Source: Candidatus Undinarchaeales archaeon
Lineage (GTDB): Archaea; SpSt-1190; JASMDC01
Length of the DNA: 11,801 nt
Direction: 5' to 3'
NCBI GenBank assembly: GCA_030753015.1
Contig: JASMDC010000065.1
Coordinates: 1 to 11,801, forward strand
Positions 8,124 to 10,584 of this stretch are shown in pieces. Below the pieces are notes generated by a model. That model was not told where the DNA came from. It saw only the letters and a program-made list of their open reading frames with translations, and did no database searches. The position numbers were made by a program, and so were the translations under genes. How positions within the stretch are numbered: position 1 is the first letter of the stretch; every line of letters begins with the position of its first letter.

Positions 8124-8162
8124 GTCGTATCCCGTCCTTCCTTCCAATCCCCTTCTCCCTAC
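8124..8162. repeat. 39-base direct repeat, copy A (beyond the idh stop)
   Basis: This copy matches 10546-10584 at 36 of 39 positions; all three differences are C/T or A/G changes. The plus strand is pyrimidine-rich and begins GTCGTATCCCGTCCTT. It lies about 108 bases beyond the isocitrate dehydrogenase stop, and the similarity stops sharply at both ends. Together the two copies bracket the dehydrogenase gene. Confidence 0.85.
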
Positions 8163-8234
8163 AGATTGAGGCCAGCCGCCCGGCGCGAGCGCCAGTGGCG
8201 AGTGGGGCGTGTACGGCAACCTCGACGGCAAGAT
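8163..8234. other. GC-rich non-coding stretch between repeat A and idh
   Basis: This short GC-rich segment lies between repeat copy A and the hairpins after idh. On the plus strand one frame reads GEWGVYGNLDGKMGGKP in protein-like fashion but has no start codon near it and runs on antisense into idh. It could be the eroded end of an older gene. I cannot assign it. Confidence 0.3.
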
Positions 8235-8268
8235 GGGCGGCAAACCGCCGCCCCTGATCTTTTATCAG
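8235..8268 (-). terminator. Twin stem-loops after idh, possible 3' end
   Basis: Two hairpins abut just beyond the dehydrogenase stop. One has the arms CTGAT and ATCAG (8254-8258 and 8264-8268), the other the arms GGGCGGC and GCCGCCC (8235-8241 and 8247-8253) around a 5-base loop. The second is strong, but no T-run follows it on the minus strand, so it may protect or process the mRNA end and not terminate in bacterial fashion. Confidence 0.5.
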
Positions 8269-8270
8269 TT

Positions 8271-10502
8271 TCAACCGGTTATGGAGTCAATAATCCCATT
8301 GAGTGTCGAGCTCGGCCTCATAGCCCTGGAAGCCTGCTCGTCGTCAGGTTTGTAGTATCCTCCATAGGACTGCGGTGAACCCTGGGCTGCATTAAGCTCC
8401 TCGATGATCTTTGCCTCGTTTTCTTTCATAGCCTTCGCAATGGGTACGAACTTTACCTTAAGCTCTGCATCTTTGTCCTGCTGTGCAAGGGCTTCAGCCC
8501 AGTACATTGCCAGGTAGAAGGCACTTCCTCTGTTGTCCAGCTCGTTAACCTTCCGGGATGGCGATTTGTTGTTATCCAGGTACTTGCCGTTGGCCCCGTC
8601 AAGGGTGTCTGCCAGGACCTGGGCCTTGGGATTGTCGAAGTTAATAGCAAGATGCTCCAGAGATGCTGCTAAAGCAAGGTACTCACCCAAAGAGTCCCAT
8701 CGAAGATGAGCCTCGGTCTGGAACTGCTGAACGTGTTTGGGGGCTGAGCCGCCCGCGCCGGTCTCGAACAGTCCGCCGCCGTTCATCAATGGAACGATGG
8801 AGAGCAGCTTGGCGCTGGTGCCAACCTCAAGGATGGGAAACAGGTCCGTGAGGTAGTCACGAAGAACGTTGCCTGTAACAGAGATAGTGTTTTCTCCCCT
8901 GGAAATCCTTTCGCATGAAAACCTGGTGGCTTCCACAGGCGGCAATATGCGTATTTCCAGTCCAGAGGTGTCGTGGTTGGGCAGGTATGCATTGACCTTC
9001 TTGATAAGCTCTGCATCGTGGGCCCTTTCCTCATCAAGCCAGAAAACGGTAGACCAGCCAGTGGCTCTTGCCCTGGTCACAGCGAGCTTGATCCAGTCCT
9101 GTATAGGCAGGTCTTTAACCTGGCACATCCGGAATATGTCTCCTTCCTCCACAGTTTGCGTAAGCAATGTATTACCAGCTGCGGAAACTACCCTGACGGT
9201 GCCTTTCTTCTTTATCTCGAATGTTTTATCATGGGAGCCGTACTCCTCTGCCTTCTGAGCCATCAGGCCGACATTTGGAACTGTTCCCATGGTGGTGGGG
9301 TCGAAGGCGCCATTCTGTTTGCAATAATCAATGACTGCCTGGTAAACACCTGCGTAGCTGGAGTCCGGGATGGTGAACTTTGTATCGTATGCCTCTCCGT
9401 CGGGCCCCCACATCCTGCCTGAAGTCCTCATTGCTGCTGGCATGGAAGCATCGATGATTACATCGGATGGGACGTGCAGGTTGGTTATACCCTTGTCTGA
9501 ATTGACCATGGCAAGTCTTGGCCTCTTCTCATAGACTGCCTGGATATCTGCTTCTATCTCAGCTTTCTTATCGGGAGGCAATGTCTCGATCTTTGCATAA
9601 AGGTCGCCAAGACCGTTGTTCGGGCTCACGCCAAGCTGCTCGAAGGTGGCCGCGTGCTTTTGGAAAACATCTTCGAAAAACACAGACACCACATGACCAA
9701 AGATTATAGGGTCCGAGACCTTCATCATAGTGGCCTTGAGGTGGACAGAGAATAGGATGTCCTGGGCCTTTGCGTCTTCTATCTGTTCTGCAAGGAAAGC
9801 ACGAAGTGCTTTTTTACTCATCTTTGTGGCGTCAATAACTTCGCCCTCCAATAACGGAGTATTCTCCTTGAGGACTGTGACACTTCCATCTTCACCAACA
9901 AGTCCTATCATGCAATTGCCCACATCAGCAGCGCTTATGGTGGTGGCCGTCTCGTTGGAGCGAAGGTCGCCCACGCCCATGGTGGCCACGTGTGACTTTG
10001 AATCAGGTTTCCACTCACCCATAGGATGAGGGTTCTTCTTTGCATAGTTCTTTACCGAGGTTGGAGCCCTCCTGTCGGAATTGCCTTGCCTCAACACAGG
10101 GTTGACCGCGCTACCTTTGACCTTGTCATATCTAACCTTTATCTCCTTCTCCTCGTCATTTGCAGGCTTCTCAGGGTAGTCTGGAAGGTCATAGCCTTTT
10201 TCCTGAAGCTCTTTGATAGTTGCCTTGAGCTGTGGGATTGAAGCGCTGATGCAGGGTAGTTTGATAACATTTGCCTCTGGCTTTTTTACAAGATCTCCAA
10301 GCTCTCCCAGGTCGTCCGACACCCTCTGCGCGTCGTTGAGCCTTTCGGGAAACTTCGCAGCGGTCCTTCCGGCGAGGGAGATGTTTCTTGTCTCCACAAC
10401 CACTCCTGCTGCGTTAGTGAACGCCTTGACGATGGGTAGAAATGAGTAGGTAGCCAGTCCTGGTGCCTCATCCACCTTTGTCCAAATAATCTTTGACTTC
10501 AT
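8271..10502 (-). CDS. Isocitrate dehydrogenase, NADP-dependent, monomeric type
   Basis: Interconverts isocitrate and 2-oxoglutarate plus CO2 with NADP in the cytoplasm. It has 743 residues, the length of the monomeric (about 80 kDa) family, not the 350-450-residue dimeric one. Characteristic stretches are [20 protein letters not shown] at the N-terminus, [14 protein letters not shown] (134-147), [33 protein letters not shown] (351-365), [10 protein letters not shown] (487-496) and [16 protein letters not shown] (579-594). Asp351, Asp549 and Asp553 line up with the metal-binding Asp350, 548 and 552 of the Azotobacter enzyme. The ATG has AGGTGA six bases before it. The gene follows the citrate lyase gene by 78 bases on the same strand. 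It is less GC-rich than its neighbours (31 of 60 at 9001-9060 against 44 of 60 at 11041-11100), which suggests acquisition by transfer. Confidence 0.96.
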
Positions 10503-10508
10503 GTTTAT

Positions 10509-10514
10509 TCACCT
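10509..10514 (-). promoter_or_regulatory. Ribosome binding site of the isocitrate dehydrogenase gene
   Basis: On the minus strand AGGTGA lies six bases before the ATG at 10502. With no clear TATA box in the 78-base gap, this suggests translation from a message that starts further upstream, probably shared with the citrate lyase gene. Confidence 0.65.
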
Positions 10515-10545
10515 GTTAACTTGACCTTGTCGGATTAGGCCCGAT

Positions 10546-10584
10546 GTCGTATCCCGTCCTTTCTTCCAGTCCCCTTCTTCCTAC
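10546..10584. repeat. 39-base direct repeat, copy B (at the aclA stop, upstream of idh)
   Basis: Partner of 8124-8162, 36 of 39 bases identical and in the same orientation. Its right end covers the TAG stop of the citrate lyase gene (10581-10583), so this copy may be the original and the other the duplicate. It lies 43 bases ahead of the dehydrogenase start. Confidence 0.85.

Follow-up and report, generated by a model that had tools for sequence, protein, structure and literature searches.

In the stretch of DNA analysed here (the window, a contig of 11,801 nucleotides), a monomeric isocitrate dehydrogenase gene (idh) lies behind the ATP-citrate lyase gene aclA and is bracketed by two copies of a 39-base direct repeat, one of which overlaps the aclA stop codon. 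The best reading of our results is that horizontal transfer brought idh into its usual operon position, as a new acquisition or as a replacement, and that the repeat is a scar of the joining. In its complete form, to which we assign a probability of about one half, this reading holds that the repeat is a non-functional trace of a foreign monomeric idh joined directly behind aclA, which would have filled an empty place there or displaced an older idh.

The repeat and its surroundings

The two copies (A, 8124-8162; B, 10546-10584) are in direct orientation, with a start-to-start distance of 2422 bases, and are identical at 36 of 39 positions. All three mismatches are transitions, and the longest exact run in common is 16 bases. 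This is the sole pair of 39-mers in the window with at least 34 of 39 matches at a spacing of 300-10000 bases, and the best pair in a shuffled control of 12 order-1 Markov nulls reached at most 28 of 39, so the direct repeat described in an earlier note on this DNA is real. Its edges are sharp: at both ends the flanks, when compared by gapped local alignment, score no better than shuffled sequence, and no homology was detected by this comparison extending from the repeat into the aclA or idh flanks. On the minus (coding) strand both copies open with G-TAG. In copy B the TAG is the stop codon of aclA, as the earlier note had observed, and for copy A no reading frame is seen to end at its TAG. 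The statement that idh and little else lies between the copies was also borne out, the order from B to A being 43 nt, the complete gene and 108 nt. The features of this region are:

7640-8047, minus strand: gene for a CoA-binding domain protein of 135 aa, the next gene after copy A (PF13380, 2e-28)
8124-8162, minus strand: repeat copy A, beyond the idh 3' end and upstream of the CoA-binding-domain gene
8163-8270, minus strand: GC-rich spacer after idh (GC 0.69 over 8163-8262), with a 7-bp hairpin (GGGCGGC...GCCGCCC) near the idh stop, from folding
8271-10502, minus strand: intact gene for a monomeric NADP-dependent isocitrate dehydrogenase of 743 aa (TIGR00178 equivalog, 1284.5 bits; PF03971 over the full length)
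10503-10545, minus strand: 43-nt spacer from copy B to the idh start codon (GC 0.44)
10546-10584, minus strand: repeat copy B, overlapping the aclA stop codon (TAG, 10581-10583)
10581-11753, minus strand: C-terminal part of aclA, an ATP-citrate lyase alpha-type/citryl-CoA lyase-domain gene (PF00285 and citryl-CoA lyase models)

The aclA frame runs off the contig end, with 406 open codons here versus about 620 aa in homologues; the TTG listed as its start is not real, since the reading frame continues past that end. The window genome has one idh. Upstream of the CoA-binding-domain gene there is a TATA-like sequence, TTTAAAAG, which suggests that this gene may have its own promoter. Elsewhere on the contig, a PIN-domain toxin/AbrB-MazE-type antitoxin pair (4147-4830, GC 0.40) constitutes a second compositionally foreign island, located between a GC-rich trp operon and a CDGSH gene; positions 5125-5928 code for a protein that combines two CDGSH iron-sulfur domains with a Fer4_19 domain.

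The window genome (3.85 Mb) contains exactly two copies of the 39-mer at up to 3 mismatches and two of its 16-base core at up to 1 mismatch, while a 23-base core, searched at up to 3 mismatches, gave one third match that has 3 mismatches and is chance-like. No match to the repeat was obtained in 389 Thermoplasmatota genomes, in the nine other genomes of the host phylum or in viral contigs, and the best ungapped match of the 39-mer to the collected loci was equal to that of shuffled controls. The search that the earlier note had proposed, with the 39-mer against the genome and its relatives, thus gave two copies and zero, respectively, and the sequence is not found behind many unrelated genes. 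The 228-nt stretch at 8048-8275 showed no convincing further copy in the window genome; within it, positions 8083-8119, upstream of the CoA-binding gene, have weak matches on two other contigs (C78:1840-1876, 81% over 37; C37:36208-36229, 91% over 22) that could be due to chance.

Neither a tRNA nor an Rfam match was found at the repeat, the copies have no stable RNA fold (z 0.11 and -0.87), there is no inverted-repeat core at the copies and there are no terminal inverted repeats, and no integrase or transposase families were detected among the scanned genes of the 11.8-kb contig. With two copies only, none in relatives, no Rfam match and no fold, a dispersed element can be ruled out, as can a repeated 3'-UTR or small-RNA family, two possibilities that the earlier note had raised.

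Composition and relationships of idh and aclA

The window idh occupies a conserved operon position and orientation. In a scan of bacterial and archaeal genomes, idh was directly downstream of aclA in 26 of 70 aclA loci, with this order present in Thermoplasmata, Trueperaceae, Cloacimonadota and others, and aclA was directly upstream in 20 of the 25 idh loci of 24 Thermoplasmatota genomes. Since the adjacency is so widespread across archaeal and bacterial phyla, the position of idh behind aclA is by itself no sign of insertion. The earlier proposal that a gene had entered there, leaving a duplicate of the aclA end on its far side, has to be given up on that point; it holds in that idh looks acquired, according to composition and relative protein distances, and in that a 3' piece of aclA is duplicated on the far side. 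A 39-base repeat bracketing idh was found in 0 of 40 comparable loci (best 27/39). The nearest AclA relatives, at 66-69% identity too distant for an empty-site comparison, differ among themselves and include one with aclA followed by idh (locus L103, genome G206) and one with an unrelated gene behind aclA (L127, G091). The searched genomes yielded neither a close relative that has aclA nor an empty site, a donor or an intermediate of the joining. One of the genomes, G186, carries two aclA-idh pairs (L126, 1504-3060), and one of them has a TAA stop inside the idh frame.

GC3 is 0.897 in aclA and 0.590 in idh, a difference of 0.308, and most neighbours of idh have values of 0.75-0.90. In a 218-kb sample of the same genome, a difference of at least 0.30 was observed in none of 81 adjacent ORF pairs (maximum 0.254), and 1 of 120 ORFs had a GC3 of 0.59 or less. 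aclA is itself unusually GC3-rich for its own genome, all 120 sampled ORFs being below 0.89, and thereby contributes to the contrast between the two genes. The low-GC segment and the repeat have different edges, since idh is separated from copy A by 108 nt of GC-rich DNA, and this lack of coincidence between compositional and repeat borders weakens a simple insertion model.

The IDH of the window is 75-76% identical to those of a Thermoplasmata group (L005, L009, L016, L019 and L036) whose own IDHs are 78-87% alike, and its AclA is 62-66% identical to those of the same group, within which the AclA proteins are 79-97% alike. By IDH the window is thus nearly as close to the group as its members are to one another, and by AclA it falls far outside. 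IDHs as alike as those of the window and this group also occur in 7-20% of the other pairs with similar AclA identity. The AclA tree rejects a grouping of the window with these five loci (p-AU 1.3e-6) and one with the larger clade to which they belong (p-AU 0.019). IDH trees put the window in a set with the five that has 97-99% support, yet a pairing with L103, one of the loci closest to the window in AclA, is not significantly rejected (p-AU 0.165). As the window-L103 IDH pair is not rejected and the groups in the AU tests were named after the trees were seen, phylogenetic support for transfer is moderate.

The main rival explanation is that the aclA-idh pair was inherited vertically, the composition of idh reflecting a local constraint, and that the repeat is an unrelated small local duplication, arising from the aclA tail by slippage or ectopic copying, which landed beyond idh by chance. 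The widespread adjacency and the IDH grouping with L103 would fit this explanation, as would the presence of diverged duplicates at a similar range on another contig of the window genome. We consider it rather unlikely, because the difference in GC3 between aclA and idh in 43 other such pairs (mean 0.014, sd 0.038) never exceeds 0.090 and because the relative distances of AclA and IDH disagree. The duplicates just mentioned (L173, contig C55, 4544-7500) consist of a 126-nt direct repeat (89%), with its parts 2174 bases apart, and a tandem gene duplication that has diverged; one unit, but not the other, has a FAD-oxidoreductase-like ORF (4657-6006, minus strand) between its repeat parts.

Origin of the repeat

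If, as we prefer to read it, the repeat marks the joining of an acquired idh, the donor would have been Thermoplasmata-like and of medium GC, and the joining would have duplicated the aclA stop with the bases that follow it, perhaps through fill-in of a staggered break. Alternatively, a piece of DNA sharing this short stretch may have been joined by a single crossover or by homology-assisted illegitimate joining. The copies would later have drifted by three transitions, and a dedicated mobile element would not be required. Visual inspection of the translated frames in the interval from idh to copy A revealed no remnant of an older idh. Both the direction and the mechanism of the event are what we infer, as no empty site or close relative was found.

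Other explanations of the repeat appear less probable. The copies each follow a coding end, are on one strand, have G-TAG in common and differ by transitions only, as could be expected of a functional purine-rich RNA or DNA element at the 3' ends of aclA and idh, involved in processing, termination or regulation and kept similar by selection; such a role is improbable, given the lack of a stable fold, an Rfam match and a third genome copy, and the absence of the element at homologous loci. Site-specific integration, also suggested earlier in the form of an att-like site, would turn the copies into attL and attR; the integrated element between them would be small and would either have lost everything but idh or have been mobilised by a trans-acting integrase. 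While there are exactly two copies, one of them overlapping a gene 3' end, around one foreign-looking gene, the 11.8-kb contig has no integrase or other mobile gene, tRNA, third copy or inverted-repeat core, the sequence is absent from viral contigs and a core enzyme is an odd sole cargo, so we give this possibility little credit.

Even less credence is given to an assembly artefact in which the idh of another organism was joined into the contig. Composition does jump at idh, and the bin is odd (3.85 Mb versus 0.6-1.1 Mb in the nine other genomes of the phylum, with 5% contamination) and is possibly a mixed bin or a misplaced taxon; however, idh is in a conserved position and orientation behind aclA, and the repeat is unlikely to have misled the assembler because its longest exact run, 16 bases, is shorter than usual assembly k-mers. 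Finally, transposon target-site duplications and integrase att sites also appear as direct repeats around an inserted-looking segment, but the window has no transposase, integrase, terminal inverted repeats or tRNA, and 39 bases is long for a target duplication, which makes an ordinary one implausible, as the earlier note had argued.

Relation to known types of gene transfer

Mosaic operons are known in which a gene has undergone in-situ displacement by a xenologue (Omelchenko et al., 2003, as cited in PMC1274311), and Methanosarcina provides examples of mosaic operons along with single-gene-sized transfers (PMC4455057). The window resembles these cases in that one gene of a conserved pair is apparently of other origin, with position and orientation kept; it differs in that the gene is flanked by a 39-base duplicate of its neighbour's end, while the loss of an older idh is only hypothetical. 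A possible difference in origin between idh and aclA is supported strongly by composition and moderately by trees (p-AU 1e-6 and 0.019 for AclA; 0.165 for IDH with L103). Homology-facilitated illegitimate recombination is likewise known (PMC5361080), and here too foreign DNA could be anchored behind a conserved upstream gene through a short shared stretch, although the searches brought up no donor with such a stretch and nothing recognisable as the remnant of a displaced gene. What we describe is, on the preferred reading, a known kind of event, fairly ordinary, with one unusual trace.

A far more speculative idea, which we regard as very improbable, is that single metabolic genes are inserted behind conserved partners in archaea by a route so far unrecognised, which leaves duplicates of about 40 bases of the partner 3' end; if this were true, scars of that size would offer a way of detecting recent operon-specific captures of genes. 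The weight of our observations is limited by their being a single case without an empty-site relative. If the repeat is indeed the scar of an acquired idh, this locus would be a rare mosaic operon that still bears a visible joining scar, and the mechanism of single-gene swaps into conserved archaeal operons would become open to study at the sequence level.
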